From NCBI GenBank assembly GCA_001784175.1, contig MFPR01000035.1, positions 1 to 42,231 on the forward strand: DNA of 42,231 nt, read 5' to 3'. Under the pieces are notes generated by a model. The model saw nothing but the letters and a program-made list of their open reading frames with translations. It did no database searches and was not told the origin of the DNA. The position numbers were made by a program, and so were the translations under genes. Of this stretch, positions 709 to 40,412 are shown one piece after another. Each line of letters starts with the position of its first letter. The stretch's first letter is position 1. Origin of the DNA: Candidatus Lindowbacteria bacterium RIFCSPLOWO2_12_FULL_62_27 (GTDB lineage: Bacteria > Lindowbacteria > 2-12-FULL-62-27).

Positions 709-768
709 TCATAAACTCAAAAACTCAAAATCTCCAGGGGGGTGCGGGGGGATCGGATGTCGTCTAAC
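376..768. repeat. 25-bp inverted repeat pair enclosing AT-rich DNA
   Basis: Positions 376-400 and 744-768 are inverted copies matching at 24 of 25 bases; both begin or end at the GTTAGAC/GTCTAAC core of the structured repeats. The enclosed segment is AT-rich and non-coding, and carries a block at about 544-608 that is repeated directly at about 100-165 (AAATAT, GAATTTTATCT, then an A-run, TTTCTTTTT and GTAAAAA). So 1-382 and roughly 434-845 look like two diverged copies of a unit of about 450 bp. Confidence 0.6.
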
Positions 769-2406: not shown

Positions 2407-2657
2407 CAGCGCCGCCCCCGTTCCGAAGGAAATAGCACGTCGGCAATCAGCGCCGCCGGAACTTCCGGCGACGACGGTGCCGCCGGCTTCGCATTTTTGA
2501 ATGCGGGGCACGAGCGGAGCAGATGGTAGTGGTCAGCTACGCTAATTTCGCGCCGCAGCTCGGCGCGCTCCGCTGGCGTCAGGTAGTCCATGAATCGTTG
2601 TGCGCTCACTTGGGACTCGTGATATTTCTTATCCCATTTCTCCCAATTAATGACCAC
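2406..2657 (-). CDS. Small protein coupled to the serine recombinase
   Basis: This 83-aa protein is not recognised. It starts MVINWEKWDKKYHESQ, is strongly charged, and ends in an Ala/Pro-rich tail. Its TGA shares one base with the ATG of the recombinase, so translation is probably coupled. Small proteins coupled to large serine recombinases sometimes act as directionality or DNA-binding factors, but nothing in this sequence shows that. No clear helix-turn-helix is visible. Confidence 0.6.
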   Translation of the reverse strand: MVINWEKWDKKYHESQVSAQRFMDYLTPAERAELRREISVADHYHLLRSCPAFKNAKPAAPSSPEVPAALIADVLFPSERGRR

Positions 2658-22387: not shown

Positions 22388-24109
22388 TCACGTTGCCCGT
22401 TCACCTCTTTTTTTCCTCACCGTTTCGTTCAAATCGTGTAGGCGCTTCCCACTCTTCGTTTGCCAGTAGAGCGGCCCCGCCACCCCATGCTCGTCTGTCT
22501 TAAGCCCATGTTTCATTAAAAGCCTTTTCGCAAGCTCGGAAATTGAATAATCCTTCCCCTCGTATCTGAGGCGATTGGACTTGGAAACGATATTTGCCTG
22601 CTCTTGTTCGAATTTCTTCTTGTGGAAGAAATATAGTGGCTCGCCGTCGAAAATAAGCCCCAGTTCCACGAGTTCGCTTAACGTGACTACTCTGCCGCGC
22701 CCAGAGATTAATGGTATCGCGAAGTCTTCAATATGCTCGGCTTGAATGACCTCCTCAATAACCTTGAAAGTTTCTCTGTGAGCTTTTAAAACCGCCTTGG
22801 CAAGAGCAATAAATTTTCCGTCAGGTGCGGTGGAGGGATTTGCGAGGGCTGAGTCTGCAGTCGTCGAACGAAATTTCTCTCTCAACTCAAGAAGCGTTCT
22901 ATTGTAACTATCGGAATCGGGAGTATTTACTTTGAACCTGTCCCATCCACGACATACCCGCCCCCCCAATATCTCCTTCGCCGCGGATGAAGGAGCCTCA
23001 AAAACATGTTCATTGACTTTTATCCCACCGTCCACAACTTCGACCTCCTTTTCGACATCTCCTCTCTTGTAGATAAGGCGGTCGCCCACACGAAGCAATT
23101 TGGCGTCAATTAAATCAATGATGGAAACCAGAGATGTACCATGGGCTTCAACACTACTTTTCGGTGCGTCCTCACCGTCTACTCTGATTTGAGTAAGCAG
23201 GTTCAGAGGCGATATTTTATATTGCTTCTTATAATGCTCCTCCTTGCGCATAATTTCCTCCACCCATTTGCTTTCAGCGGGAGATATAGCAATCCTCCCG
23301 AATCCGGCATCACTTGGCGACGAAGCGAGATTACGAAGAAACTCTTGGATGATTTCACTTCCTTGGGACGAGAGAGACGGGTGCATGGCACAGGGCTTAA
23401 GCAGCTCATCTACGAGTTGTTGATAACTGAACGTTATGAAATCAGGCGACATGGCCCGGCGCCCTTGGGATTCTTTTCCTTCGGCATCGGGGCTCAAAAA
23501 TAGGAGCGCCCGGTACAATTTGTCTGCCCGACTACATTCGGGTTCGTCGAACAGACGTCCATCTCGGGAATCTTTGTGCTTATCCTCCAAGACATATTCT
23601 GCGTACTTGATTGTCTGATCTTTGGACTCTTTAGCTTTCACCTTGTTTTCACAAATGAAAAGTAGCCTTGAATGCTCGTTGTTCATTTCCATTTCTGCGG
23701 CGATGCAAACGTCGAAGCTCAGTTTGTTATTTCGCGTGTTTGAGAGATGCACAGTCAATTCACTCTGTTGTTCGGTACTTTGAGAGTCTGGCCACACCCG
23801 GCATCGGATAAGTTTCGCCTCGACGATGTATTCCAAGGGGGGAAGATGGATCCGCGCGCGCTTCTGTATGTCATCTCCATCATCCAATGACATGGCAATA
23901 AGCAACTGCCGAAAAGGGAAATCGCCAAGTTTGTGGCTGCCTTGGGGATTTAACAACCATGCGAGAAATGCAGAATGCCAGCGTTCCAAGTGTGTTGTGC
24001 CGAGGATCGAAAGAAATCCCGTAGACTTTAGATTATTCTCGATTGAGAGAAATGCCGGGTCGACCAAGAGGTCGCAGAGCTGTTTGATGTTTCTGATTTC
24101 TTCGTCCAT
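22388..24109 (-). CDS. PD-(D/E)XK nuclease with RAMA domain
   Basis: This 573-aa protein starts with a PD-(D/E)XK nuclease fold of the PDDEXK_4 kind: HLERWHSAFLAWLLNP near residue 40, LSFDVCIAAEME and LLFICENKVKAKES near 130-165 (catalytic D and ExK), and TIKYAEYV. Near residues 355-395 GGIKVNEHVFEAPSSAAKEI and RGWDRFKV match the RAMA domain found in restriction and modification proteins, thought to read DNA modification. A restriction-like effector acting on modified DNA fits, but is inferred. GAGGTGAT with a 7-base gap supports ATG 24109. It lies in a run with a HAD phosphatase and AddAB. Confidence 0.75.
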   Translation of the reverse strand: MDEEIRNIKQLCDLLVDPAFLSIENNLKSTGFLSILGTTHLERWHSAFLAWLLNPQGSHKLGDFPFRQLLIAMSLDDGDDIQKRARIHLPPLEYIVEAKLIRCRVWPDSQSTEQQSELTVHLSNTRNNKLSFDVCIAAEMEMNNEHSRLLFICENKVKAKESKDQTIKYAEYVLEDKHKDSRDGRLFDEPECSRADKLYRALLFLSPDAEGKESQGRRAMSPDFITFSYQQLVDELLKPCAMHPSLSSQGSEIIQEFLRNLASSPSDAGFGRIAISPAESKWVEEIMRKEEHYKKQYKISPLNLLTQIRVDGEDAPKSSVEAHGTSLVSIIDLIDAKLLRVGDRLIYKRGDVEKEVEVVDGGIKVNEHVFEAPSSAAKEILGGRVCRGWDRFKVNTPDSDSYNRTLLELREKFRSTTADSALANPSTAPDGKFIALAKAVLKAHRETFKVIEEVIQAEHIEDFAIPLISGRGRVVTLSELVELGLIFDGEPLYFFHKKKFEQEQANIVSKSNRLRYEGKDYSISELAKRLLMKHGLKTDEHGVAGPLYWQTKSGKRLHDLNETVRKKRGERAT

Positions 24110-26170: not shown

Positions 26171-27557
26171 GAGAAATTGTCAAATGTTGTGGATCGCATG
26201 ATCAAGCGGCGATCCTTTCTTGCTCCTGAAATTGAACTCCATCTATGAAACGAATACCGTCCCGAACGAGTGCAACGAGTTCGGGTGCGTGAACTTTGGA
26301 CCAGCGTTTCTGCGCCGACTCCAACAACTTGAAGGCCATCATCAGCCCGGCGGTCCGGGATCCGGCGCCTTTCGTCACGCGCGTGCGGAGTTTGACGGTG
26401 GCGAAGGCCGACTCGATGGGATTGGTCGTCCGCAGATGTTTCCAGTGCGCGGCCGGGAAATCGAAATGCACGGCCAGGGCCTTACGATCCTTGAGCAGAC
26501 ACTCGGTGGCCTTGGGATATTTCGCCTGATACTCGGCCTCGAAGCGATTTGTTTCCTTGCTGAAAGTTTCCCGATCCGGCGCGTTCATAATTTCATGCAA
26601 CAAACGCTTGGCTTGGGGCTGGAGACGTTTTGGAAGTTTGTCCAGGACGTTGGCGATTTTATGTACCCAGCAGCGGCTTTCTTTGGTCTGCGGCCAAACA
26701 TTGCGGACCGCGGCCCAGAAGCCGAGCGCGCCGTCGCCGACGGCCAAGACCGGTGCTTTCATGCGGCGGCGTTTCAAATCCCGCAACACGCTTGCCCAAG
26801 ACTCCGTTGATTCGCGATAGCCGTCTTCGATTGCGACCACTTCCTTGTCTCCTTCCCTCGTCACACCGACAATCACCAGAAGACAGAGATTTTCTTCTTC
26901 GAGGCGGATCGACAGATGAACGCCGTCAGCCCAGAGATAGACATAATCTTTCTGCGACAAATCGCGCCGGCGGAATGCTTCATATTCCGCCTCCCAGACT
27001 TTTTTCAGCCGCGTGATCGTGGTCGCCGACAGTCCTTTCGCCTCATCGCCGAACAGGGCGCTCAGCGCCTCTCCGAAAGCTCCGGTTGACAGACCTTTCA
27101 AATACAACAGCGGCAAGACCTCCGTGACGTTTGCCGATTTCCGCAGATACGGCGGTAACACCACGCTTCGGAATCGTTTTCCTTCTCGCCCGTCGACGAC
27201 ACGCGGCGCCTCAATCACCACTTCACCCGACCCCACCAGCACTTTCCGCGGGCGGCCATATCCGTTGCGGGTCACCAGCGCGCGGTCTTTTGCGTCGCGA
27301 TATTCCTTCAGTCGCTGGACGTATTCATCCGTCTCGGCCTCCAACGCCTCGACGATCATCCGGCGAGCACCGCACCGGGCCAGATCATCCAAACTGACTT
27401 GCACCTCTGGCGTTTCTTTCTTCCACGTTGTAACTTTGAACATCGGCGTTCCTCCTTCGCCCGGTTCGAGCCGGGTTTTTGATTTGACACTCCGGTCAAA
27501 TCGGAAGGATACGCCGCTTTTTTGTATCACTCAATCCACAACTTTCGGTTATATCTC
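26171..27557 (-). mobile_element. IS256-family insertion sequence with 9-bp target duplication
   Basis: The element is 1387 bp. Both ends read inward from GAGA and share GTTGTGGAT, TGAT and AAGCGGCG at matching places (imperfect terminal repeats of about 50 bp). It is flanked by the exact duplication GAATTTATT (26162-26170 and 27558-27566). It encodes one transposase. A small inverted repeat GATTTGAC/GTCAAATC lies at 27481-27502, upstream of the transposase start, and may limit read-through transcription. The perfect duplication implies a recent insertion. Confidence 0.92.
26202..27443 (-). CDS. IS256-family (Mutator-type) transposase
   Basis: This 413-aa protein has the full IS256 catalytic set: VYLWADGVHLSIR (first Asp), VLAVGDGALGFWAA (second Asp), the CWVHKIANVLDKLPK C-x-x-H block, and RTTNPIESAFATVKLR (Glu). 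AAGGAGGA six bases before ATG 27443 gives the start. Length and motifs look intact, so the element is probably active. Confidence 0.95.
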   Translation of the reverse strand: MFKVTTWKKETPEVQVSLDDLARCGARRMIVEALEAETDEYVQRLKEYRDAKDRALVTRNGYGRPRKVLVGSGEVVIEAPRVVDGREGKRFRSVVLPPYLRKSANVTEVLPLLYLKGLSTGAFGEALSALFGDEAKGLSATTITRLKKVWEAEYEAFRRRDLSQKDYVYLWADGVHLSIRLEEENLCLLVIVGVTREGDKEVVAIEDGYRESTESWASVLRDLKRRRMKAPVLAVGDGALGFWAAVRNVWPQTKESRCWVHKIANVLDKLPKRLQPQAKRLLHEIMNAPDRETFSKETNRFEAEYQAKYPKATECLLKDRKALAVHFDFPAAHWKHLRTTNPIESAFATVKLRTRVTKGAGSRTAGLMMAFKLLESAQKRWSKVHAPELVALVRDGIRFIDGVQFQEQERIAA

Positions 27558-28103
27558 GAATTTATTCCGTCTAAGATAATCAACAAGAACAAGTGCACGT
27601 TCCTCGAAACGATTGGCCGCAACAATCAATATCGGTCCTCTTAAGTGGTTTCTTTCGATTCTACGTTTTATGGTTTTTTCCTCTATCTGTGCGTCTTGGG
27701 AAATTTTCGCCATTTTATAGGCATTTTTGAAAAGGTGGAACCAGCTTATCAACCCCGTTTGCTTGGCATGCTCATCTGCAATTTCAAGTATTCTCGAAGC
27801 GTTCCAACGACTTGTTATAAACGAGGCATATTCCTGTAACTGTGCAACGACCTCTCTCCTCTGCTCTGGATTCTGAACCAATTTACATTCTACGATCAAC
27901 AGGGTACCTGTATCGTCAAGAAAGAGAAGATCAAGCGATCCAATCCCCGCCAAGGGTACTTGCCTGCCGATGGGTACCGCGATCTGCGCCTTGGGGTTTA
28001 TGTCAGCTATGGGAATGACCGTGGGAGTTGATTCGATTAATTGTTCAAACTGCTCTTCTTCCCCACTCGTAAAAGGTTTTTCCTTTTCATGGAGTGTTGT
28101 CAT
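27549..28103 (-). pseudogene. N-terminal half of IS-interrupted PD-(D/E)XK protein
   Basis: This 184-codon frame holds a RecB-like nuclease core: GSLDLLFLDDTGTLLIVECK (D and ExK) followed by EVVAQLQEYASFI. The last codons and the TAA come from the IS end (GAGATATAA), so the native frame runs to RRNKF and then into 26158 and onward. ATG 28103 overlaps the end of the 136-aa gene by 17 nt, and AGGAGG lies upstream. A truncated nuclease may still be made. The intact protein would join an N-terminal nuclease to an unrecognised C-terminal half, next to a DUF3553-like partner. Confidence 0.82.
27558..27566. repeat. Target-site duplication, right copy
   Basis: GAATTTATT adjoins the IS256-family element on the right and is identical to 26162-26170. 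Confidence 0.9.
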
Positions 28104-28511: not shown

Positions 28512-29135
28512 TCAATGCTTTTCTTTTCGCTCGTAGTTCGCAATTCCCCTCTTCGCTATTCGAATCGACAATTCAACAAACGTGCATTTGTCCGCTCTGA
28601 AGATTGCGTTCAGGCCGATTTCGGACTCGCGCGTTTTGGCGGCGGCGAAATACTGTTCATCTTCGAATGCGTACAGCAGGGTGGACAGTGCCTCCTGATT
28701 GCGTTTGTGGATATCGATCATGACGCTATATTCGCCACGGATGCAGAATACCGCGCCTGCGTATTCGCTCATGTCGACCACGATGCGGATCAGTTCCGAT
28801 ACGCTGTCCGGCTGGATGGCCTTCTGGGCGCATGTCCTTTTCACGCCAGCGGCTGATGCTGAGATCAACTCGAACAGGCGGTACCAGTACATGCCGTCGT
28901 CATAGAGGTGGTGGGTCAGAAAATACTCGCGGTTTTTTTGTACAAGTTTGAGACCATCCCGGGACAATGACAACAGCTCGTCGAAAAGTCTCCCGTCAGG
29001 CCGTTCGACGGTACTCCATGGCGAATCCTCCTTCCGCGAAAGGTACGCCTTTTCAAGAGCCTGCAATCTGGCCCGGACATCGGCGAAATCCTTTTCCGCG
29101 GGGATCGGGATCAGAGGCATGAGGGAGTCATCCAT
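28512..29135 (-). CDS. Hypothetical 207-aa helical protein
   Basis: The protein starts MDDSLMPLIPIPAEKDFADV and appears mostly helical, with a WYRLFELISASAAG block. No family is recognised. Its ATG overlaps the stop of the 315-aa gene by 8 nt, so the two are translated together. It is downstream of the HslV-like peptidase and may be part of that system. Confidence 0.6.
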   Translation of the reverse strand: MDDSLMPLIPIPAEKDFADVRARLQALEKAYLSRKEDSPWSTVERPDGRLFDELLSLSRDGLKLVQKNREYFLTHHLYDDGMYWYRLFELISASAAGVKRTCAQKAIQPDSVSELIRIVVDMSEYAGAVFCIRGEYSVMIDIHKRNQEALSTLLYAFEDEQYFAAAKTRESEIGLNAIFRADKCTFVELSIRIAKRGIANYERKEKH

Positions 29136-30075
29136 TCATCGTCGCCAGCCCGATGATCTCGTCGGCGGTGCGGAGGCGGGCGTCGGGGGAGTCGATGTCC
29201 CTGTCGAGGAGCGGGTCGATGTCGGGGATTTCAGCTTCGTCGTCAAAATCGAGAATGGCTTGTTCCAAGCCACCGAGATTCGTGGGGTCGGAGGGATCCG
29301 GTTTCTCACCCTGCCGCGCGTAACCCAGCCGCACGAACGCCTTCAAGTGCTCGATCAGCCGCAGGCGGGCCGGTCGATCCATGCCGATGGGCGGCAAGGG
29401 CTCGACTTTGATGCGTCCATCGTGCCAGACCGTCATGAAAACGCCGGATGCGGCGGCGACGTTAACCGCGTCGGGAATGGCGATTTGGACATCCAATCCG
29501 GCCGCTTTCAAGTTGCGATACAGTTGTTTGAGCCATTCGTGATCCAGATCCTCCTCGCGACTGACCAGAGCGTCGAAGTCAGGCTGATCGAACAGGGAGC
29601 GATTGAAGCGAGCGACACGGCCGTCCTTCAGCACGGCTTCGTACCACGCTCGCTCCGGCGTTTCGACAGCCACAATCCGCGTTGCCCGATTCTTGATCCA
29701 CGGCTCGTAGATGACAAACGCGATCATGAACTCGCGGATCCGCAGCGATTCGGCCACTGGATCCCTTGACGGAAGCCCTCCGTAGGGGAAGCGAAAAAAT
29801 AGATGGCCCCAGTCGTCGGCGCGGATGTAATAAAAGGTCCCCGCCCCGTCGCCGCTCCGCCCAAATCCAGTCAGGAGATACCCGTTCGGCGCCCTGCGCA
29901 GAAACTCCTCCGGATCGCCTGCTCGAAAGCGCGGATTCTCGCGCGCGGCGGCAGTTCCATAGATCGCCGTTCCGGGCGCAAGACGCACAAGGTCGAAGTC
30001 GTCGACCAACTGCCACGGGAATGCCCACGCCAGCTCATCGGCGAAGAGACGCTCAAGCTCGGAGGTGTCAGCCAT
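29128..30075 (-). CDS. Hypothetical 315-aa protein next to HslV-like peptidase
   Basis: The first ~110 residues (FRRAPNGYLLTGFGRSGDG-type segment, then TFYYIRADDWGHLFFRFPYG) have the aromatic, Gly-rich pattern of SUKH/SMI1-like sensor domains, but the match is weak. The C-terminal half is acidic and unassigned, ending DIDPLLDRDIDSPDARLRTA. It starts 24 nt after the peptidase gene. A substrate-binding or immunity role is a guess. Confidence 0.55.
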   Translation of the reverse strand: MADTSELERLFADELAWAFPWQLVDDFDLVRLAPGTAIYGTAAARENPRFRAGDPEEFLRRAPNGYLLTGFGRSGDGAGTFYYIRADDWGHLFFRFPYGGLPSRDPVAESLRIREFMIAFVIYEPWIKNRATRIVAVETPERAWYEAVLKDGRVARFNRSLFDQPDFDALVSREEDLDHEWLKQLYRNLKAAGLDVQIAIPDAVNVAAASGVFMTVWHDGRIKVEPLPPIGMDRPARLRLIEHLKAFVRLGYARQGEKPDPSDPTNLGGLEQAILDFDDEAEIPDIDPLLDRDIDSPDARLRTADEIIGLATMNG

Positions 30076-30098: not shown

Positions 30099-30764
30099 TC
30101 ATCGTGCCGTGGTTCTCGCAACCCGGCGGCGGCCATGATTGGACTCGACACCGGCGGCTCCATTGTTTCTCTGCGTGTTTGAACGGCCGGCATTCGATAT
30201 TTCACGTGAGACATGACGAAGTTCCATTTTTCCGCCGCAACTACGGTGGAAAAAGCAAACGGTGTTGAATGTCTGTCTCAAAATCTCGGATGCCTTCTCC
30301 AGGCGCGGATATAAAGAGTGAATGGCACCCAAGGCGATTTCATTACCGCTTCCGATGGCCGCAAAATTATCAAAAACGCAAATATCCCGGCTTGCCGCGA
30401 CTTCAAACATTCGCCGCGATGTCGCGACCATGAACGACGCGTCGCTGAGTTTCGAAATTTCATTCTCCTTTGCCGAACCGAGCGAATACCGCTCTTTGAC
30501 AAAGGCATAGACGTGCTGAAAAAAATCGGTCACATCGTGTTCGTTATCGAAAGCGCTCTCATACATATCCCTTTTCCTATCCGCGAAGTAACGCAGGACA
30601 TTTTGAAACAGGACGTTGCCTGAGCAACCTATTAACGCGTTTTTGAAACGCGTGATTTTTGTTACATCTGACCTGTCCGTACGGACAATCCACCCCCAAG
30701 CGGTCAGGCTGTCCGCCATCATCCACATCTCGCCGTTCTTTTTTACTGCCGCAATGACTGTCAT
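30099..30764 (-). CDS. HslV/proteasome-beta-like Ntn peptidase
   Basis: This 221-aa protein begins MTVIAAVKKNGEMWMMADSL: removal of Met would expose Thr1 as nucleophile, Asp of MMADS corresponds to Asp17, and Lys of DVTKI to Lys33. FAAIGSGNEIALGAIHSLY is the conserved GSG segment. It thus has the catalytic set of 20S-type peptidases such as HslV, which form stacked rings fed by an AAA+ unfoldase. The last ~30 residues are Asn/Arg-rich and unusual. It lies in the same operon as a ClpX-like unfoldase fusion and 26 nt after the small TGHxH protein. A truncated second copy of its N-terminus lies at 33939-34064. Confidence 0.8.
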   Translation of the reverse strand: MTVIAAVKKNGEMWMMADSLTAWGWIVRTDRSDVTKITRFKNALIGCSGNVLFQNVLRYFADRKRDMYESAFDNEHDVTDFFQHVYAFVKERYSLGSAKENEISKLSDASFMVATSRRMFEVAASRDICVFDNFAAIGSGNEIALGAIHSLYPRLEKASEILRQTFNTVCFFHRSCGGKMELRHVSREISNAGRSNTQRNNGAAGVESNHGRRRVARTTAR

Positions 30765-30789: not shown

Positions 30790-31098
30790 TCAATCCTCCA
30801 CCCGCTTGATCTCGCCGGGTGTGTACTCCCGCTGGCGGCGGATGCGGTAGATGCCGGGTGTGATCGTGATGGCCGCATGCTCTTCGTGGACTAGCGACGT
30901 GTCGCCGGTGACTTCGGCGTAGATATCGCCGTCGGGCGCGTCGAAGAGGGCGACCGCCGATTCGTCGCTGAAGCGATGCCGGTGTCCGGTCGCCTCGCCG
31001 TAGGCTACTGTCAGGTCGGTTCGCGCTTTGAGTTTGTCCGGCATCGGGGATCCGGTTTTTATGATTAAAACGTCGCCCTGTCGGTACTGCTCGCTCAT
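30790..31098 (-). CDS. Small DUF6745-associated protein with TGHxH and HEEH motifs
   Basis: This 102-aa protein reads MSEQYRQGDVLIIKTG, AYGEATGHRHRF, SLVHEEHAAI and YRIRRQREYTPGE. It is beta-rich and two His clusters could bind metal, as in a small jelly-roll or cupin. I recall similar small proteins beside DUF6745 genes in other bacteria, and here it follows the DUF6745 fusion gene by 45 nt. The function is unknown. Confidence 0.7.
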   Translation of the reverse strand: MSEQYRQGDVLIIKTGSPMPDKLKARTDLTVAYGEATGHRHRFSDESAVALFDAPDGDIYAEVTGDTSLVHEEHAAITITPGIYRIRRQREYTPGEIKRVED

Positions 31099-31143: not shown

Positions 31144-33942
31144 TCAAGTCTCCAATACCGGGACGTACTCTTCAGGTTTGAATCCAAATGTCCATGCGGC
31201 GGCGTGGGTGCAGGTTTTCATCTCACCTCCCGCATCCTCCCAGAGTGATTCCTCGCGATCATCCCATTTTCCGCCCGCCGCGCGTCTCGCATCGCCCCGC
31301 CCGGGCGGGACGCGAAGGAACACATCGGCCGCAAGACCCAGACGCACTTTCGCCGGATCGATCACATGCAAAATCACCATGGGCTCGTCGTCCTGCAAAT
31401 AGATACGATAGAGTTTTCGCGGATTGCCCGCCGTATCCCGGTCTTCGTCCAGAACCGCCGGGGACGCCTCGCGAATGAACGAAGCCAGACCCTTGCGCGC
31501 GATCATCAGCCGCCGTACTTCAGCGTTCTTCTCGTTCAGGATTGTCTCGGCCGAGAGAGATTGCGGATCGTTGATCACGACGGGAGGCACAACCACCCCC
31601 CGGTATCGATAAATCTCAAGTCCGTCGCTCAATACCGCGGCCGGTCCGCTTTCTGAATGCAGACGATTCCCGGTCTGATCCACATCAATCTGTTTTGGGC
31701 GCGTCACGATGAAAACGGTCTTCTCCAATGCAAGAAATGTCCATCCTCCGCTTGCGTAGAACTGCTTCATAAAAGCCGCCTCTTTGCTGATTCGCTCAAG
31801 CTCGGCCTGCAAGGCGGCATCGCAGGGATCGGTTGATTGAAAATGCCGGGCGGCCAGGACCGAAAATATGATGTGATTGGACATCACGCGTTTGAGATCC
31901 CAGTAGCAGAAGAATTTTTGGGCGGATGTCAAATTCGGCGTGTCAGCGGTGGTAACCGGAACGTTGCTGTTAAAATGCATTGTGTTCATAATTTTGCCGA
32001 GCGCTTCGTTAACGGATTTCAGAAAAAGATCGCTGTCGTGAACCTGGCTGCAGATTCGTCTCAACCCGCCGGCCAGCATCGGATCAATGAAGATCGCGTC
32101 GTTTAATGCGTGGAGGGATTGCACGCAGGGATGCCTGCTCAACGCGTCCGTGACATGCCGGCCCAACGCCGTGAGGTACATTTGGGACGATTCTCTGCCA
32201 AATGTCGAATAGAGCGCCCGGGCCGGCGCTCCCGAGAATCCGATTTGGGCAAGAAGGTTGTAATTCTCCATTTTCACTTGATCGGACGACGGATGATCTC
32301 GTCCGCAAGCGCCCTCGCGCGTGTGCGACTGCTGGAAGTCCCGGGCGACTTCTGCGGCGATGAGGGGCGCGGCCGGGTGCGAGCAATAGACGATGTCGGC
32401 AGGCAGGCGTTTGCCGTGGATTTCGTAAAAATCGGAGATGGCGTCGAACAGCGCCACTTCATCCACGGCGGCTTGGGAGAGCAGGTCCGTCCAGTCCGAC
32501 ACAACGGAATTGACCATCCCGGTGTCCTCTTCAAACCACAATCGTGCCGGAGATGCGGCGGCACGCGGTTCGGATTGAACGGGACGACGAATCGTTCCAT
32601 CGTGCGATTGAACGGGCACGTTATTCGGGATTTCGTGCCGGCATAGGACGAAACATTTCCGGAAATATTCGGGGACATAAGCGTTGACCAGATTAAAAAA
32701 CGGGCGACGCAGTTCGAGCGAACGAACTTCGAAGATGATTTCAGAATAATATTTCTCCCCGAGCCTTGCCAATTCTTCTTCAAATGCGATTTTTTCCGGC
32801 GCGGATGAAAACTCGATGATGCCCGCGCCATTTACTGTCTGAATATTGCGGAGCAGGGCATTCTCCTGTTTGTCCGACAACGAAACAACCTGCAATATGC
32901 CGTTCTTGCCCTGAAGGCCGGAACAAATGGACGGTGCAAGCGCCCGGCGAACAGCCCCGAGGGAATCAGTCCCATCGGACCGCACAAAGGCGTCCAGAAT
33001 GGTCAGGGTGTCAACAATGGGAATGCGTTCCGACAACAGATCTTGAAACAGCGCGTGTATCTGGTCGAGCCCGAACTTATTGACCGCCATACCTACCATC
33101 AGCTCGTCATCTGCTTTTGCCTTGTCCAAGAGCAACTGTGTCTGGTCCATTGAGAAAAGGGACGCTGCGTGTCGAGCCGCGAATTCAAACAAATGGGAGG
33201 ACATTACCACCGCCGGCTCCGACAGATAATAACCGGATTTCTCGGCGAGTTCCCGCTGGTCGGGCTTGATCCAAATGGCCGGAGCATGAAACAGCCGCTC
33301 GACATACGGAATCCCCTCGATCTCATGCCCTCCCCCGTCGGTTTTCACGGCCAGTACTCTCTCCGGTTCAACGGTGCCGGATTCGATCTGCCTGCCCTTC
33401 AGGAGAAGGGTATATTCCTTTGGCCGAAGTTTCAGGTCATCCCGGATACGGACGGACGGCAGGGTCACACCGAATTCATTGGCGAACCGGGTTCGGACGT
33501 TGCTCACTGCATCAAGGAATCCGTCGGGCCCCGATTGTTCACGATCTACAAGGGGAATCAGATGGTAGGCGATATTGACTTCGAGCTGTTCGACGGATTT
33601 GGGGGTGATCTCATTATAGAAATAGGTCCGCGCCGGCCGATCGATTCGATAGATGAACGCCAGCACCTCGGCCACTGGCTGATAATATTCGGATGGTATC
33701 TCCTCATCAACTTTGACCTTTCTGCATAGAAGGTGCGCGAGGCCCGCATATTCATAATTCGGCAGACCGATTCGCTCTGCGAGCCGAATGACATGCTTGG
33801 CGGTCCTGCCTGACCACTTCCCAATGACACGCGGAGTTTTATCCTGTTCGGGTCGATATGAAATCGCGACCGCCGGACCAGTCCCGCCAAAAATGAGAAC
33901 GTCGGAATCGTTCTTTGGTTGAATTCGAACGTCCATCGTCAC
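31144..33942 (-). CDS. FlhB_C - FlhA_C - DUF6745 fusion protein
   Basis: This 932-aa soluble protein has three parts. Residues ~13-105 resemble the FlhB/YscU cytoplasmic switch domain (VAISYRPEQDKTPRVIGKW, HLLCRKVKVDEEIP, AEVLAFIYRID). Residues ~145-345 resemble the FlhA cytoplasmic (FHIPEP) domain (TLPSVRIRDDLKLRPKEY, GIPYVERLFHAPAIWI, FQDLLSERIPIVDTLTILDA). Residues ~490-932 are DUF6745 (GNRLHSESGPA, NAEVRRLMI, WTFGFKPEEYVP). In flagella these gate domains bind export substrates and chaperones at the membrane; here no transmembrane helix and no NPTH autocleavage site exist. A GTG start at 33942 is favoured by GGGGA upstream; ATG 33936 is the alternative. It lies between the ClpX-like fusion and the HslV-like peptidase. 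Confidence 0.78.
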   Translation of the reverse strand: MTMDVRIQPKNDSDVLIFGGTGPAVAISYRPEQDKTPRVIGKWSGRTAKHVIRLAERIGLPNYEYAGLAHLLCRKVKVDEEIPSEYYQPVAEVLAFIYRIDRPARTYFYNEITPKSVEQLEVNIAYHLIPLVDREQSGPDGFLDAVSNVRTRFANEFGVTLPSVRIRDDLKLRPKEYTLLLKGRQIESGTVEPERVLAVKTDGGGHEIEGIPYVERLFHAPAIWIKPDQRELAEKSGYYLSEPAVVMSSHLFEFAARHAASLFSMDQTQLLLDKAKADDELMVGMAVNKFGLDQIHALFQDLLSERIPIVDTLTILDAFVRSDGTDSLGAVRRALAPSICSGLQGKNGILQVVSLSDKQENALLRNIQTVNGAGIIEFSSAPEKIAFEEELARLGEKYYSEIIFEVRSLELRRPFFNLVNAYVPEYFRKCFVLCRHEIPNNVPVQSHDGTIRRPVQSEPRAAASPARLWFEEDTGMVNSVVSDWTDLLSQAAVDEVALFDAISDFYEIHGKRLPADIVYCSHPAAPLIAAEVARDFQQSHTREGACGRDHPSSDQVKMENYNLLAQIGFSGAPARALYSTFGRESSQMYLTALGRHVTDALSRHPCVQSLHALNDAIFIDPMLAGGLRRICSQVHDSDLFLKSVNEALGKIMNTMHFNSNVPVTTADTPNLTSAQKFFCYWDLKRVMSNHIIFSVLAARHFQSTDPCDAALQAELERISKEAAFMKQFYASGGWTFLALEKTVFIVTRPKQIDVDQTGNRLHSESGPAAVLSDGLEIYRYRGVVVPPVVINDPQSLSAETILNEKNAEVRRLMIARKGLASFIREASPAVLDEDRDTAGNPRKLYRIYLQDDEPMVILHVIDPAKVRLGLAADVFLRVPPGRGDARRAAGGKWDDREESLWEDAGGEMKTCTHAAAWTFGFKPEEYVPVLET

Positions 33943-34064
33943 ACCAGTTCCCCTTTCCGCTGGGGATCAGATCGATCAGTGCTGGAAACCCATCCCCAGG
34001 ACGTTAGGCCGGCCGCCATCATCCACATCTGATTGTTCTTATTCAGAGCGGCTATAACGGTCAC
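33939..34064 (-). pseudogene. Truncated HslV-like N-terminus coupled to ClpX-like gene
   Basis: A frame starting with GTG that overlaps the ClpX-like stop (GTGA) reads MTVIAALNKNNQMWMMAAGL and TSWGWVSSTDRSD, matching the start of the intact peptidase over 33 codons (about 70 percent of bases, many third-position changes). It ends soon after, before the Lys33 equivalent, at a TGA just before the next gene. The Asp17 equivalent is Ala. It is a remnant of a second, diverged subunit once coupled to the unfoldase. Confidence 0.7.
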
Positions 34065-36595
34065 TTCGAACCCCCATCAAAATCTTTTCGATACATCTTT
34101 TCGGTCACGATTCGGTGCCCTGCCGACAACGAAAGCCACACATCGACTTCAGATTCCGACAGGACCGCGATGCCGTCATTCTCCGGCGATAGAATCTCAT
34201 AAATGGCCCGGCGGGTTGTTGGTGGAGCGATTATAACCGGCCGCCGGCCGACAGATTTTGTGGCGGCGATGCTCTCGGCGAAAAACGACTTTGCTTGCTC
34301 CGCAGCCTCCGGCGAACTCATCTCCGCCTGCGTTGCGACACCGGCTTCAATTGCATGGAGAACTCCATCTGTGCCGGCCAGGCGGTCGCAGATGATGGGC
34401 GCCAACACGTGCCGCACCCGCTCGACCATCTCCGAGAGGGGCGCGTTTGAATCGAGCGATAGGAGTGTGTCCAATATAAGTGTGATGTCCTTGATGGGCA
34501 CATGTTCACGCACCAATTCCCGCAAAACGGATGTGACTTTCCTGGCTCCGATGCCTTTTTCGACCTCCTCCGCGAGCCTGGCGCACTTGTCTTTGACGAT
34601 ATCAAGAAGGCTTTCGGTGTGCTCTCGCGAAACGAGCAACCAGGCATTTTGGCGCAACGCGTGCTCCAAGTGTTTTGCGATGACTGTAGGAGGGTCGTAG
34701 ACGGTACAACCGGCTTGGAACGCCCTGACAGCATCATCTGGATCGATCCAAATCCCAGACTGCCCGCTGACCGGCTCCCGCACCACGTCACCTCGAAACT
34801 GCGTTGTCGCGGGGCCGATCGCCATCAGCCGATCTGGCCGTAACTCACCCCGGCCTCGCCGCATGCCTCTGATCAGAATCTCGTAATAACGGGGCGGTAG
34901 GGAGTGAGATACTCTTGTTTCAACTTGCGGAAGGATCAGGCCAAACTCGTTCGCTAAACGAAATCGAATTTGGGCGGACACATCGGCGAAGAACATAGGC
35001 TCAAGTTCATATTCGGTCAGAATATGGACATCTGTCTGAGCAACACTTTCCTCAATTTCCGTCCCTCTCTCACGCCAAATCTTGGGATCAGGCCGCCCGT
35101 GAGCCCTGTCGAAGGCGAGCGCATCCCGATAAACGTCATTTAAGGGCCCACGAAGTGCCGGTTGAACCATCTGGTCTTCGATACAATTATTCCACAACGC
35201 TGTCATCAGGATTTCGTCCGATTTGACGATTTTACGATATTTTCGGGCCCGTTCGATGAGTTTGTCCGCTTTGGCACCGGTCCATTTGGCCTTGCAGACA
35301 GGTTGGACGACACGCAGAGGCTCCATTCGTTCGAGTATGCTGCCGGCTTCGGATGCCTGAGGACACAACTCATAATCGACAGCGACGACTCGCCGGTTCG
35401 AAGTAATCAAGAACTTGAAAGATAATTTCCTGACCTCAGCGGCACTGTCCTCATCAAGCGAATCCGCCTCCAGTTCGGTTTCCTGGGCGCCTGACCCGGC
35501 CGACTCGGGAACACATCTAACGCGACCCTCCTCGAGTTTGACGTTGACAACTGTCGAAGACTTTACAGGCAGAAGGTCGTACATCACAGGTTCGAGTTCT
35601 TTGGCGAGGAGTTGCTGGAGCCCACGCGCGCCTATTTGTGTCTTCACAGCAGTGTGGACGAAGTGGCTGAATACCGCCGGCTCGATGTTCAGCTGCAAGC
35701 CATCTTTTGCAAACTCCGCCGCCGCATGTTTCGATGCCTCCGACTGGACGATGGCAAGCAACGTCTGTTCATCGAGCGGGTCAAACGTGACGACGCGCCG
35801 GAACCGTGCGATCAATTCCGGCATAAACCCGAATTTCTTAAAATGCTCGATGTTATCGATCTCCTCTTCGGTAAAAGCTGCGGCAATCTGTTCGGAGTCG
35901 GATTTGTCCGCAGCACCTAAAAATCCGATGTTCGGCCCGCCATGAATGGAGCGTACGGCAGTCTTGAATCCAGAGAACGCCCCACATGCGATAAATGAAA
36001 TGTGGGATGTCGACATTTGAAAGGACGGATCGTCGTGCCCTTCAGGTACATCGACGCGAGCGCCGTCGAGCATCTTTAGAAGCTCCCGCTGGACACCGTA
36101 TCCGCTGACATCCTGATATTCGCTGCGTTTCCCGGCAGTCTTGTCGAACTCATCCAAGCAGACGACACCACACTCGGCCTTGAAGCGGTTCCCATCAGCC
36201 ACGGTTATCAGGCTCTTCAGAATCTTGATTACATCCATACCGTGATAGCCTGTCTGTGAATAATTGGTCATATCAGCGATGAACACCGGGACTTTGAGAA
36301 TTTTAACAAACAGCAGATCCACCAGATGGGTCTTCCCGCTGCCCGTGGGTCCCATCATGAGGTAATTGAGTTTCGGCGGGCCGACGACCGCATGTCCAGC
36401 ATCTTGATTGGCGGCCGCATATTGCTTGATGCGCTTGATATGCCGGTGCGCCATGAGACACAAAGCCCGGCGGGCCCGCACCTGCCCTCGATACCCCAGT
36501 GACTCCAGTTTATCGAACAATTCTTTCGGTGAAGGCACGACCAACTTCCTCGCCCATTCCCTGAAGGTTTCCCTGTCCTCGTCTTCGTCAGCCAC
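34061..36595 (-). CDS. ClpX-type AAA+ unfoldase fused to FlhB_C and FlhA_C domains
   Basis: This 844-aa protein (GTG start at 36595, AGGGGTGA eight bases upstream; a TTG at 36625 is possible) begins with a ClpX-type AAA+ module: Walker A GPTGSGKT (82-89), pore loop GYHG (116-119), Walker B VVCLDEFD (144-151), an IGF tripeptide at the position of the ClpP-docking loop (223-225) and sensor-2 GARGL (322-326). The ClpX zinc domain is absent. Residues ~398-505 resemble FlhB_C (VCKAKWTGAKADKLIERARK) without NPTH. Residues ~535-745 resemble FlhA_C (LANEFGLILPQVETRVSH, LRELVREHVPIKDITLILDT). It probably unfolds proteins for the HslV-like peptidase in the same operon, with gate domains as receptors; this is inferred. 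Confidence 0.8.
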   Translation of the reverse strand: MADEDEDRETFREWARKLVVPSPKELFDKLESLGYRGQVRARRALCLMAHRHIKRIKQYAAANQDAGHAVVGPPKLNYLMMGPTGSGKTHLVDLLFVKILKVPVFIADMTNYSQTGYHGMDVIKILKSLITVADGNRFKAECGVVCLDEFDKTAGKRSEYQDVSGYGVQRELLKMLDGARVDVPEGHDDPSFQMSTSHISFIACGAFSGFKTAVRSIHGGPNIGFLGAADKSDSEQIAAAFTEEEIDNIEHFKKFGFMPELIARFRRVVTFDPLDEQTLLAIVQSEASKHAAAEFAKDGLQLNIEPAVFSHFVHTAVKTQIGARGLQQLLAKELEPVMYDLLPVKSSTVVNVKLEEGRVRCVPESAGSGAQETELEADSLDEDSAAEVRKLSFKFLITSNRRVVAVDYELCPQASEAGSILERMEPLRVVQPVCKAKWTGAKADKLIERARKYRKIVKSDEILMTALWNNCIEDQMVQPALRGPLNDVYRDALAFDRAHGRPDPKIWRERGTEIEESVAQTDVHILTEYELEPMFFADVSAQIRFRLANEFGLILPQVETRVSHSLPPRYYEILIRGMRRGRGELRPDRLMAIGPATTQFRGDVVREPVSGQSGIWIDPDDAVRAFQAGCTVYDPPTVIAKHLEHALRQNAWLLVSREHTESLLDIVKDKCARLAEEVEKGIGARKVTSVLRELVREHVPIKDITLILDTLLSLDSNAPLSEMVERVRHVLAPIICDRLAGTDGVLHAIEAGVATQAEMSSPEAAEQAKSFFAESIAATKSVGRRPVIIAPPTTRRAIYEILSPENDGIAVLSESEVDVWLSLSAGHRIVTEKMYRKDFDGGSK

Positions 36596-36743
36596 GAAAG
36601 ATTTCACCCCTTTCCGAATAACCAATGTGCATCGCGCAGGCCCATCGGTTCCACCACACCTGATACAAATGCGGTTTTTTTTCGGATTTCTGTTTTTTGA
36701 AGAAAATTTATTGATATGGCTGGGGACGGTATGGAGCGGCGGG

Positions 36744-39173
36744 TTACCCCTGGTTGAACACGGCTTCTCTCACTGGCTCGTCTATGCTCTCGAACCGGGA
36801 TGAACTCAATATTTCGGCGACTGCGCTCCTCGGTTTCGGATATCGCGGCGATGCGCCGAACGGCGATATTCGAATCACGTCCTTTGGTGGCGGCTCAAGC
36901 CATACAACCCAGTCATCAGCGAGTTTCCTTTGCGACATCAATCCGGCAGCCTCATCGAACAAGGCACGGTAAATCCTGGCGCGCCGGGCATCTTTCATCG
37001 CTTCGTATGCCAGCGACAGGCCACGGTGGGGATGAGCGTTGGAAGGATCGTCGGCGAGCGCGCGGTGGAAGCATTTAGCGGCATCGTGGTTCTCTCCCGC
37101 GCGAAGGTGGACTCCGCCGAGCAACATCCAGACATAGCTTGCGAATGATGAGCGAATTCCACCTCTCTTGCCCCGGCTCTTTTCAACATCCGATCGTGTC
37201 AGAAGCGGCCAGCGCTCGAAGACCGGCCGCATGGGCCGGGGTGACCTGGCGATTTCGGCGAGAACCTGATCAAGGCGGATTCTGGCATCGGCATCCCGTC
37301 CACGGAAAATCGCGATCTCCGCCAAGTACAGCCACGTGCGGACTTCATCGACCTTGACGTCCAGTGCACGTTGCGCGGCGCGCTCGGCCTGATCATACCT
37401 GCCCAGCAAGATGCAGAGCCGGACGATCCGGCGGATGTTGTGGACATCCGACGGATTGACCTTGCATCCGATATCCGCCCATTTAACAGCCTGTTCGTAC
37501 AGCCCCCGGTTGCGGAACGAATCCGATACCCATCCAATGGTAAATGAATTGCTCGGGTCGATCCGATAGGCCTTCATGAGGACCTTGTCGGCGCGACCGT
37601 TGTCGCCGACGTCACGCAAGACACGCGCAAGACGTTGAAGGGTGCGGACATTGCGGGGGTCGAGCCGGTGCGCCTTTTCCATCCATTCAAGTGCTTTGGT
37701 GTATTTTTTCATGCCTCGATAAACATAGGCGATCTGCCTGACCGCCCACTGATTTTTTGGGATAATCTGATGGCACTTCATGAACCACTGGATCGATTCA
37801 TCCCAGGCGCGCATATCGCGGCAAATATATCCCATCTGCGCTATTGTGCTCGCGTTGTCGGGGTCGATTTCGAGTGCGCGCTTAAGCCACTCCTTGGCCC
37901 GGGTGAAATCGTTTCTTTCACGCTCAAGGAACGACATTTCATTGAGATTGCCGACGTCACGGGGGTCAAGCAGATACGCCCTTTGGAGCCAACGAACGGC
38001 TTCGTCGAACCGGCCGAGTTTGCGGTTGACCTCGCCAACCTTTGCGTAACCGACAGGATCGGCCGGCTGGAGGGCGATGGATTTTTCCAGGAAGCGGAGG
38101 GCGAGTTTTTCGTCCACTCGCCACATTTCGATCGCGGCGATACGGTAGACATACGGATCCTTGGACCTGAGATTGCCGAGCAACCGCGCTTCGCGCCGCG
38201 CCTCATCCAGCCGCCCGCTTCGCCGGAGGATTTTGACAAGAAGCAGTCTGGCGAACACGGCTGTCAGCCTGTCCTCGATACATTCGCGGACCATTTCCTC
38301 CATCTTGCGGTCGGGGTTCAAAGTACCTTGCAGAGTCGCCATGCCCCAAGCGACCTTCCATATTTTTTGTCTCGGAAATTTCTCCGCGAATAATTTGTAC
38401 TGACCGATGACCGACGGCATTCCGAGTTCCTGGCGACATCGAATGTCCATCCATATCGCCGGAAGATAGGTGGGATGCGATTTGAGAACCCGGTCCAGTA
38501 AGAAAAGCGCGTAATCACTGTCGTATGCGTCAAATTTCCTGGCGGCCAGCCGGAAATAATAATCGTCTTTCGCTTCTTTTGCACGAGGAGCCGACGGGTC
38601 CAGAGAAAGATACTGGCCGACGATCGCTGTCCGCGCCTTGCGCTCGCCAATTCCTGAAATCCGCGCCACGGCCGGCGCCGCCAATGACGAAAACCTTAGA
38701 AACTCGTCCAACCTGCGCTGATGAATTTCCGGATCGATCAGTGCGATGGGGGGGCCCATTCTGGTCGAATCGACATTCCCGGCGTCTATGGCAGATCCCC
38801 CGCGGTCCAGGTAAGCCGTAACCTGACGCATGGCTGATGCGTGAACCGTCCCGTGGAATCTGTGTTCCAAGGAGAGAAGCGTTTCCGTCAGCATCGGGAG
38901 TTCAGCCCAGCATTCGACAGCCATCGGGATGTCAAGATCATTCTCTGCCGGGGGGATGCGAATATCACCGGGCGCAAGTTTATCCAGCCGGATTGTCACT
39001 GGGACGAGCCGGAAGGCGGGACCATCCGCCGAGCCATCTGCGCACACGGCGTGCGTCACGACAAAACTCAAGAGGTCCCGGCCGGACTTGACCGACCAAA
39101 ACTGTCCGGGCCGTATTGCGTCCGGTTCTGTTTCGGTCTTGGCCATCCGCCTCAACGTGTTTTTCGTGGTCAT
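36744..39173 (-). CDS. TPR-repeat protein with unique N-terminal domain
   Basis: This protein of about 809 aa has an N-terminal beta-rich domain (RPGQFWSVKSG, then FRLVPVTIRLDKLAPGDIRI) followed by at least ten tetratricopeptide repeats between about residues 220 and 720. Typical units are GRFDEAVRWLQRAYLLDPRD, DFTRAKEWLKRALEIDPDN and KYTKALEWMEKAHRLDPRN. TPRs bind protein partners, so this is a likely scaffold or substrate adaptor. ATG 39173 is preferred because GGAAGTGAT stands six bases upstream; ATG 39230 lacks a site. It lies between the sigma-like gene and the ClpX-like fusion. Confidence 0.8.
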   Translation of the reverse strand: MTTKNTLRRMAKTETEPDAIRPGQFWSVKSGRDLLSFVVTHAVCADGSADGPAFRLVPVTIRLDKLAPGDIRIPPAENDLDIPMAVECWAELPMLTETLLSLEHRFHGTVHASAMRQVTAYLDRGGSAIDAGNVDSTRMGPPIALIDPEIHQRRLDEFLRFSSLAAPAVARISGIGERKARTAIVGQYLSLDPSAPRAKEAKDDYYFRLAARKFDAYDSDYALFLLDRVLKSHPTYLPAIWMDIRCRQELGMPSVIGQYKLFAEKFPRQKIWKVAWGMATLQGTLNPDRKMEEMVRECIEDRLTAVFARLLLVKILRRSGRLDEARREARLLGNLRSKDPYVYRIAAIEMWRVDEKLALRFLEKSIALQPADPVGYAKVGEVNRKLGRFDEAVRWLQRAYLLDPRDVGNLNEMSFLERERNDFTRAKEWLKRALEIDPDNASTIAQMGYICRDMRAWDESIQWFMKCHQIIPKNQWAVRQIAYVYRGMKKYTKALEWMEKAHRLDPRNVRTLQRLARVLRDVGDNGRADKVLMKAYRIDPSNSFTIGWVSDSFRNRGLYEQAVKWADIGCKVNPSDVHNIRRIVRLCILLGRYDQAERAAQRALDVKVDEVRTWLYLAEIAIFRGRDADARIRLDQVLAEIARSPRPMRPVFERWPLLTRSDVEKSRGKRGGIRSSFASYVWMLLGGVHLRAGENHDAAKCFHRALADDPSNAHPHRGLSLAYEAMKDARRARIYRALFDEAAGLMSQRKLADDWVVWLEPPPKDVIRISPFGASPRYPKPRSAVAEILSSSRFESIDEPVREAVFNQG

Positions 39174-39236
39174 GGTGTTATCACTTCCATTGAGCGCGGC
39201 GCCGTTCAGACGGTACCGGCTGTTCTCCATCCATCA

Positions 39237-40412
39237 TTATGAATGTCCTTTTCCCGTAATATTCTGATACTCGTAGCAAATCCTGCAAAAATCACCGACC
39301 AGCAATTCCCGATACCTGTCATAGTATTGAGCGCCTCCACGCTCAATGCCGAGAACATTTCGAAGTTGTTCCATCGCGTTCCGGCGTTCCACGGTGGCTT
39401 GGGCATTCTGCAGACCCACGGTGATACCCAGACGCCGGGCAGACACCTTTTTCACACGCCCCGTCTTGGGATCGTGGTGCAAAGCCATAATCTCGATTTG
39501 TCGGGGCGTCAGGAAATTACCCGAGTGGACCAATCGTTCCAAGTATTCGACATGCCGCTTGTAGTCGACTGCGTCCTGAAGATCAAACGGATCCGCTTCA
39601 AGATCGAGCAAATTCACTTTTTTGGCCGGGTCGTCCGGATCCGGCCGTTCGGCCGGTACGAACGCCGGGTGGCGTTCGTCGAACAGACCCTTGATGATAT
39701 TGCAAAGTGTAGATGTACCAAGGCCGACATTCTTCCGCTCGTAGATATTGCCCGCAACGTCAAACGCTGCCTTGACGATTTCGGCGGCGTATCTCGGACG
39801 AAATTCCCGTATCCGGCTTGCTTGAAACCACGCATCCAGCCCCCGGACGAGGCAGGCACGCGCATTGGAATCCATGGGGACGAGCGGCATTCGGACTCTG
39901 GAGGCCAGAACATACATGCGGTCGGACGCTCCATGCAGGTCCACCGACCCGCTGACGGGGATCAGTTCCCCCTTGGAGGCGGCCATCTTGAAGGCTGTGG
40001 CAATCGGTTTATAGACCCTTTGATTCTTTCGATGAGAACCTTTCATGCAGCGCTCGGCCACCGTCTCCAGCGTCATCACGAACCGGCCCGCTCGGGTCTG
40101 CCCCCGACGCCGGTATTCAGGCGCGATTTTTCTGTTGCGGCCCTTGTAGCCCCTGTAAAGAACCTCCTGTGCGGCGTCAAGGACGTCCTCGTCGGTCGGA
40201 CCGTATACCTGAACATCATCTCTTTGAAACCGCCGCCAGATGCGTCTGACGGTCTCACGGTGCAATTGAACAAACCACGGAGTCGAAAAATCGGCGGCAT
40301 CCGCACTCTTAAAATACTCCTCCACCAATTCCTCGAACTGAGTGTTCGGTATCCGAGACCATCGATGTAGTCGTTGTGCTATTCGTTGGCCGCCTCCTGC
40401 CATCGTCTGCAT
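39237..40412 (-). CDS. Sigma-like DNA-binding protein heading the ClpX-like operon
   Basis: This 391-aa protein has an N-terminal helical stretch like sigma region 2 (DEDVLDAAQEVLYRGYKGRN) and a C-terminal region-4-like helix-turn-helix (NFLTPRQIEIMALHH, then KKVSARRLGITVGLQNAQAT). The middle ~150 residues are unassigned. It is about twice the length of an ECF factor and parallels the sigma-like gene at 5640-6884, which also heads an ATPase operon. The start is uncertain: ATG 40412 or 40403, neither with a clear ribosome binding site. It would control expression of the TPR and protease genes; inferred. Confidence 0.55.
   Translation of the reverse strand: MQTMAGGGQRIAQRLHRWSRIPNTQFEELVEEYFKSADAADFSTPWFVQLHRETVRRIWRRFQRDDVQVYGPTDEDVLDAAQEVLYRGYKGRNRKIAPEYRRRGQTRAGRFVMTLETVAERCMKGSHRKNQRVYKPIATAFKMAASKGELIPVSGSVDLHGASDRMYVLASRVRMPLVPMDSNARACLVRGLDAWFQASRIREFRPRYAAEIVKAAFDVAGNIYERKNVGLGTSTLCNIIKGLFDERHPAFVPAERPDPDDPAKKVNLLDLEADPFDLQDAVDYKRHVEYLERLVHSGNFLTPRQIEIMALHHDPKTGRVKKVSARRLGITVGLQNAQATVERRNAMEQLRNVLGIERGGAQYYDRYRELLVGDFCRICYEYQNITGKGHS

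Follow-up and report, generated by a model that had tools for sequence, protein, structure and literature searches.

A predicted soluble FlhB_C-FlhA_C-DUF6745 fusion in Candidatus Lindowbacteria

To our knowledge, the cytosolic domains FlhA_C and FlhB_C have been studied only as parts of the membrane export gate of type III systems, to which FlhA/SctV and FlhB/SctU belong. The 42,231-nucleotide stretch analysed here, the window, is contig MFPR01000035.1 (positions 1 to 42,231, forward strand) of Candidatus Lindowbacteria bacterium RIFCSPLOWO2_12_FULL_62_27 (assembly GCA_001784175.1), and it encodes P0001, a protein in which both domains are joined to a DUF6745 (PF20530) protein. According to the available text of PMC8166844, FlhA_C is nonameric in the export gate, Glu-351, Trp-354 and Asp-356 of FlhA are ring residues and chaperones dock at a dimple of Asp-456, Phe-459 and Thr-490; that of PMC8983047 places an export-signal pocket in FlhB. 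P0001 resembles the gate proteins in having a complete FlhA_C and, as FlhB_C, the part of FlhB behind the cleavage site. In contrast to them it has neither membrane domains nor the NPTH motif, carries FlhB_C and then FlhA_C on one soluble chain, and is encoded away from flagellar genes. A second likeness is to the DUF6745-GEVTGH pairs of viral contigs and plasmids, P0001 having a full-length DUF6745-type protein with a GEVTGH gene adjoining. A third is to the effector-associated domains of conflict systems, in which a non-catalytic module is likewise common to neighbouring proteins with different effectors, although those domains are small and the module here comprises about 450 residues from an export gate. 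From two genomes, P0001 is tentatively read as a soluble fusion in which detached FlhB_C and FlhA_C may form a portable docking cassette on a DUF6745 protein; everything beyond the domain architecture is what we infer from sequence.

The P0001 gene is organised as follows:

31144..33942, minus strand, P0001: FlhB_C at residues 11-97, FlhA_C at 116-442 and a full-length DUF6745-type protein at about 452-932

The reading frame runs from 33942 to 31144 with a GTG start and 932 open codons (932 amino acids), and the plus strand over the same interval is interrupted by stops; an earlier sequence-only reading had the coordinates right, the gene lying on the minus strand. Pfam matches were judged by the curated cut-offs, and all three P0001 domains lie above them. 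Residues 11-97 match positions 249-335 of the 335 of Bac_export_2 (64.7 bits against a cut-off of 24.4, E 1.1e-17), residues 116-442 match positions 329-656 of the 657 of FHIPEP (178.7 bits against 29.1, E 2.5e-52), thus comprising a complete FlhA_C, and residues 709-889 match DUF6745 (98.7 bits against a gathering cut-off of 27, E 3.6e-28). A sequence search of the PDB retrieves 3myd for FlhA_C (E 3.6e-34) and 3b1s for FlhB_C (E 1.9e-10). NCBIfam also calls FlhA and FlhB in P0001, with equivalog scores far below those of the full-length proteins (187 of 772 bits for the FlhA equivalog). The FlhA N-terminal membrane domain is missing, the FHIPEP match beginning at profile position 329, and since the profile matches cover only the profile ends, P0001 retains nothing of FlhB and FlhA beyond their cytosolic ends. 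The DUF6745-type part exceeds the Pfam domain: a DUF6745 protein without FlhA or FlhB domains from a relative, Candidatus Lindowbacteria isolate nzgw232 (G001), aligns to P0001 residues 452-932. Because this alignment starts at residue 452, the module ends near residue 450. The sequence-only reading had confined it to the N-terminal 345 residues, where FlhB_C and FlhA_C do lie but where the module does not stop; its view of P0001 as a second carrier of the FlhB_C/FlhA_C module is borne out by the Pfam and PDB matches, the profile similarity of the N-terminus to both domains being significant.

The residues of the cassette differ in how well they are kept. The NPTH autocleavage motif reads GGTG in P0001, is absent from all five aligned soluble modules (5/5) and is intact in the flagellar FlhB of the host. 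Eight FlhB_C columns, including P37, A91 and L94 of P0001, are invariant in the six rows formed by five soluble FlhB_C and the host FlhB (6/6; P0003 is not one of these rows). The alignment to Salmonella FlhB, gap-free from residues 12-102 to 262-352, puts these three at positions 287, 341 and 344, columns P, A and L that we take to belong to the export-signal pocket. The dimple positions of FlhA are occupied by E/F/S in P0001, D/R/G in its G001 orthologue, E/S/K in the neighbouring carrier P0003, E/T/S and E/S/S in two G001 proteins with an HExxH motif, and E/F/T in the host FlhA. Since these residues vary among the carriers, the canonical dimple for chaperones does not appear to be conserved across the cassettes. 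The three ring residues are not evident by ungapped counting in the short stretch ahead of FlhA_C in P0001. A stretch RP(A/S)RTYFY is common to P0001 and its orthologue, and the soluble modules are 27-35% identical to the host gate.

P0001 belongs to a minus-strand gene run with 4-nucleotide overlaps that contains two carriers of the cassette. The genes nearest to it are:

34061..36625, minus strand, P0003: ClpX-like AAA+ module at residues 30-356, decayed FlhB_C at about 435-500, FlhA_C at 550-828
33939..34064, minus strand, truncated BPH-type copy of 41 codons, with 4-nucleotide overlaps with P0003 (upstream) and P0001 (downstream)
30790..31098, minus strand, GEVTGH partner of DUF6745: 102 amino acids, phrog_27831 (unknown function), profile E 8.5e-27
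30099..30764, minus strand, P0006, BPH-type proteasome homologue: start MTVIAAV, match to 5ovs with E 1.4e-12

The two carriers had been placed two genes apart; only the one open reading frame of 41 codons, with overlapping starts and stops, lies between them. Both had also been credited with the same pair of domains. This holds for FlhA_C, which is clear in both (Pfam E 1.7e-48 in P0003), and holds less well for FlhB_C, which in P0003 is decayed, has no Pfam match and is recognised by hhalign (probability 82, E 1e-5 over 56 columns). Compared directly, the P0001 and P0003 modules are similar with a BLASTP E of 1e-28 at 28% identity. P0003 resembles ClpX in its AAA+ module, in which the ATPase motifs (Walker A GPTGSGKT, a DEFDK Walker B, a GY-type pore loop and GARG) and an IGF-type, ClpP-binding loop are kept. 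In contrast to ClpX, as seen in an alignment with two ClpX sequences, it has neither the zinc-binding N-domain nor the RKH loop, and it carries the FlhB/FlhA cassette at its C-terminus. It scores 211.5 bits where one ClpX equivalog model requires 359, and 184 where the other requires 370.75.

The host genome (G000, 4.39 Mb) encodes full-length flagellar FlhB and one full-length flagellar FlhA, together with three soluble FlhA_C proteins, P0001, P0003 and P0004, the last on another contig with a Tat-like start and the domain order FlhA_C then FlhB_C. G001 has four more soluble FlhA_C proteins (contigs C245, with two, C84 and C343). The seven carry four kinds of partner: AAA+, DUF6745, a metallopeptidase-like HExxH region and a Tat-like N-terminus. 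FlhB_C is found by Pfam in five of the seven and by hhalign only in P0003, with none detected in the C343 protein. When the cassette alignment was compared with 386 genomes, 175 gave some match; among the matches listed, the fused FlhB_C-FlhA_C form occurs only in G000 and G001, and the others are ordinary FlhA-type frames. A genome-contig search with P0001 alone confirmed none of 29 pattern stretches as relatives, the same search with alignment A3 gave one relative, the G001 contig, and viral scans with P0003 and with alignment A2 gave none. A 478-amino-acid FlhA frame in genome G080 was considered as a detached FlhA and rejected, being a contig-end piece beside frames that look FlhF-like and sigma-like by eye. 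In a tree of FlhA_C modules, for which L050, L051, L052 and L055 of the nine outside FlhA loci chosen were left out (missed by the motif filter), support is confined to the pair of P0001 with its orthologue and to the pair of HExxH proteins, and the long branches mean that the tree does not settle the origin of the cassette.

The G001 orthologue of P0001 is 58% identical to it, with open frames split over two contigs. P0001 residues 1-408 match a frame at the end of contig C245 (E 2e-153) and residues 343-911 match one at the end of C148 (E 2e-215). The two contig ends (L034:3-1406, minus strand, and L010:6708-8438, minus strand) have 204 bases in common, 200 of them identical, inside the orthologue; because of this overlap the two pieces are taken to be one gene, the mismatches perhaps reflecting two strains or a duplication. 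The orthologue starts 2 nucleotides behind a gene whose product combines an HExxH motif with FlhB_C and the beginning of FlhA_C, and thus the pairing of carriers recurs in G001, with FlhB_C-FlhA_C-DUF6745 directly behind a different carrier. Near-identical copies of the HExxH-FlhB_C-partial FlhA_C protein lie on different G001 contigs (L034:1226-2950, minus strand, and L035:1207-3147, minus strand); they end after about profile position 479 of FHIPEP, the remainder of FlhA_C being missing. Two genes of the window also have counterparts there: the HExxH-FlhB_C-FlhA_C gene is immediately preceded by a homologue of 28512-29135 (207-amino-acid product; E 3.5e-52), and 27549-28103 (184-amino-acid product) matches a gene on C148 (E 4e-15).

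The DUF6745 part of P0001 evidently belongs to an older two-gene unit with GEVTGH. The GEVTGH profile was built from the gene of about 100 amino acids that precedes DUF6745 in the first five plasmid records (Streptomyces, Methylobacterium and Deinococcus), and it also finds copies in G001. The viral sample consisted of IMG/VR loci found with alignment A5, namely the best 80 of 98 confirmed (L070-L149), with 82 DUF6745 frames. A GEVTGH partner lies within 1.2 kb of DUF6745 in 50 of 56 complete viral frames and in 4 of 26 frames at contig edges, and no other family occurs in more than six of the viral neighbourhoods. PF20530 is present in 4 of the 386 genomes, and the two outside the Lindowbacteria pair also carry the partner. 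A survey of DUF6745 genes for FHIPEP domains finds the fusion in G001, but no FlhA_C or FlhB_C match at the best 80 viral loci, the plasmid loci examined or the loci of these two genomes; the survey of plasmid and other records covered 8 of 11. DUF6745 genes adjoin the radical SAM genes STM4011-STM4015 in plasmid records of Streptomyces (two), Methylobacterium (one) and Deinococcus (two), the pair with GEVTGH lying beside these genes at loci L056, L057, L058, L066 and L069. The same genes are not beside DUF6745 in the Nostoc, Mycolicibacterium and Nocardia records (one each), and none was recognised in the window.

GEVTGH keeps the histidines of TGHxH and HxEH, and a C-terminal Asp is present in all 38 aligned rows (38/38). 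Its model is all beta (pLDDT 86.5), with no fold match in the PDB. A Caudovirales phage protein resembles it (E 3.5e-6), and a weak resemblance extends to proteins from rod-shaped viruses of archaea (E 0.005 and 0.019). The DUF6745 model has a pLDDT of 71 and is good from about residue 230 on, residues 95-228 or thereabouts being badly modelled; its fold has no PDB match, which does not show that the fold is new. A C-terminal 'ET' of DUF6745 was present in 6 of 7 rows of alignment A4; of 48 rows just 16 have it, and it is not regarded as a conserved feature. A full-text search of the open-access literature gave no paper on DUF6745.

P0006 resembles the BPH proteasome homologue in its match to 5ovs and in its active site, in which Thr directly after the start Met, Asp-17 and Lys are all kept (reference residues from the available text of PMC5777263); a double ring of 14 subunits is a further mark of BPH. 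The difference is its position near an AAA+ gene, whereas no AAA+ partner of BPH is reported in the available parts of PMC5777263 and PMC8665760; P0003 is a candidate AAA+ partner for a BPH-type peptidase. The 41-codon piece is the nearest parallel of P0006 in the genome (63% identity over 35 residues to P0006 residues 1-35, E 5e-9) and has Ala at the position of the catalytic Asp-17. A search with P0006 gave no match in 188 of 192 genomes, G001 being among them.

The preferred reading of the cassette is that it would keep the proteins of a single complex in contact, either through cassette binding to cassette or through a ligand that they share. P0003 would then be an unfoldase in which the cassette has replaced the ClpX N-domain and which has ClpP or the neighbouring BPH-type peptidase as its partner, and P0001 an adaptor or receptor presenting DUF6745-GEVTGH, or whatever this pair binds, to the proteolytic machine. 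It is favoured because the same large non-catalytic cassette occurs on neighbouring proteins with different partners, and because the partner changes between genomes and FlhBA-DUF6745 stays. The same pattern has led to the inference of homotypic adaptor domains in other prokaryotic systems, and homotypic coupling is proposed for effector-associated domains (available text of PMC7159879 and PMC8195603); the main text of these two papers contains no FlhA, FHIPEP or flagell. Several points weigh against it. The fused FlhB_C-FlhA_C form is known from two genomes only. The decayed FlhB_C and lost dimple of P0003 make it less likely that the two cassettes bind the same ligand. Competition of the two carriers for one substrate, a suggestion of the sequence-only reading, is conjectural. 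The G001 loci seen have neither the AAA+ nor the BPH gene, and therefore proteolysis by an AAA+/BPH pair cannot be the conserved function. DUF6745 is without known fold or activity; the sequence-only reading, which saw in it a possible sensor or effector, overlooked the adjoining GEVTGH gene and the BPH-type genes. Finally, the peptidase assignment in G001 rests on the HExxH motif and a sub-threshold Pfam match to Peptidase_MA_2 (E 0.11), and the region has no PDB match.

A docking function nevertheless ranks as the most likely of five explanations. The next is flagellar quality control, in which the cassette would compete with the real gate for export substrates or chaperones and the AAA+ protein would unfold or degrade them. 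It accords with the full-length FlhA and FlhB of the host and with the retention in P0001 of Phe at position 459 and of the pocket residues of FlhB, but is made unlikely by the loss of the dimple in the orthologue and P0003, by genome G002, in which no soluble copy accompanies the flagellar FlhA and FlhB, and by the gene run, in which no flagellar gene was recognised and whose neighbours are of recombinase, IS256, GmrSD, RAMA/PDDEXK and AddAB-like kinds. Those same restriction-type and mobile-element surroundings, and a constant cassette with varying partners, accord with a decoy or guard, in which the cassette would mimic the export gate, trap an invader protein aimed at the flagellar machine and trigger DUF6745, the peptidase or the AAA+ protein. 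Against this, no PADLOC model matched P0001, P0003, P0006 or GEVTGH and the modules stand far from the host gate in identity; a decoy is judged slightly less probable than quality control. Co-assembly of P0001 with P0003, or with flagellar FlhA, through FlhA_C in a nonamer-type ring is more doubtful again. All of FlhA_C is kept in P0001 and the domain is nonameric in the gate; the ring-stabilising linker residues are, however, not evident, and FlhA_C is incomplete in the G001 HExxH proteins. ClpX-type AAA+ rings are hexamers, which would give a symmetry mismatch. Decay as a functionless by-product of gene shuffling, suggested by the truncated BPH copy, the nearby IS256 transposase and the decayed FlhB_C of P0003, is quite improbable in view of the 932 open codons, the 58%-identical orthologue with open frames and the active-site residues kept in P0003 and P0006.

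Building on the docking function, it is conceivable, if doubtful, that Candidatus Lindowbacteria have turned the cytosolic half of the export gate into a free cassette for recognition and assembly, about 450 residues long and passed among a ClpX-type unfoldase, an HExxH peptidase and the phage-borne DUF6745-GEVTGH pair, in a new targeted-proteolysis or conflict system that would possibly pair a BPH-type peptidase with an AAA+ protein for the first time. Judged from its listings, the open-access literature holds nothing that describes FlhA-FlhB fusions, FlhA with ClpX or conflict systems, or Lindowbacteria flagella in this way. A soluble, reused FlhA_C/FlhB_C cassette would mean that export-signal recognition is separable from transport and can be wired to proteolysis. 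The P0001 cassette would also serve as a soluble construct for studying gate recognition, the locus would offer its candidate partner for a BPH-type peptidase, and DUF6745, often met together with its small partner gene on plasmids and phage-like contigs, would gain a first functional foothold.

The remaining genes of the run are:

39237..40412, minus strand, 391-amino-acid protein, no family match, first gene of the run, sigma-factor-like by eye only
36744..39230, minus strand, P0002: N-terminal 'PGQxW' domain and TPR array, upstream in the run
29128..30075, minus strand, 315-amino-acid protein of unknown family, downstream in the run
28512..29135, minus strand, 207-amino-acid protein of unknown family, with the G001 homologue given above

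A kinship of the 39237-40412 gene with genes upstream of other FlhA_C loci, suspected by eye, was not supported when these were compared. P0002 is similar to two genes near other FlhA_C loci (hhalign probability 76, E 2e-5). Mobile or defence-like genes of the window encode a serine recombinase (709-2511, minus strand), a GmrSD-type protein (12002-14884, plus strand), a RAMA/PDDEXK protein (22388-24109, minus strand) and an IS256 transposase (26202-27530, minus strand), and an AddAB-like gene is also nearby. Near other FlhA_C loci, Lon protease (S16)-like domains with Ser and Lys kept were seen by eye at L005:4155-6202 and L035:5893-7452 (both plus strand), Pfam giving no S16 match for L005:4856-6202 or L035:5893-7452. 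Twin-arginine-like N-termini, SRRGFF and SRRRFL, were likewise seen by eye on the FlhA_C proteins L005:9227-10441 and L033:6735-8036 (both plus strand); with such a start, a domain of the export gate would come to lie outside the cytosol.

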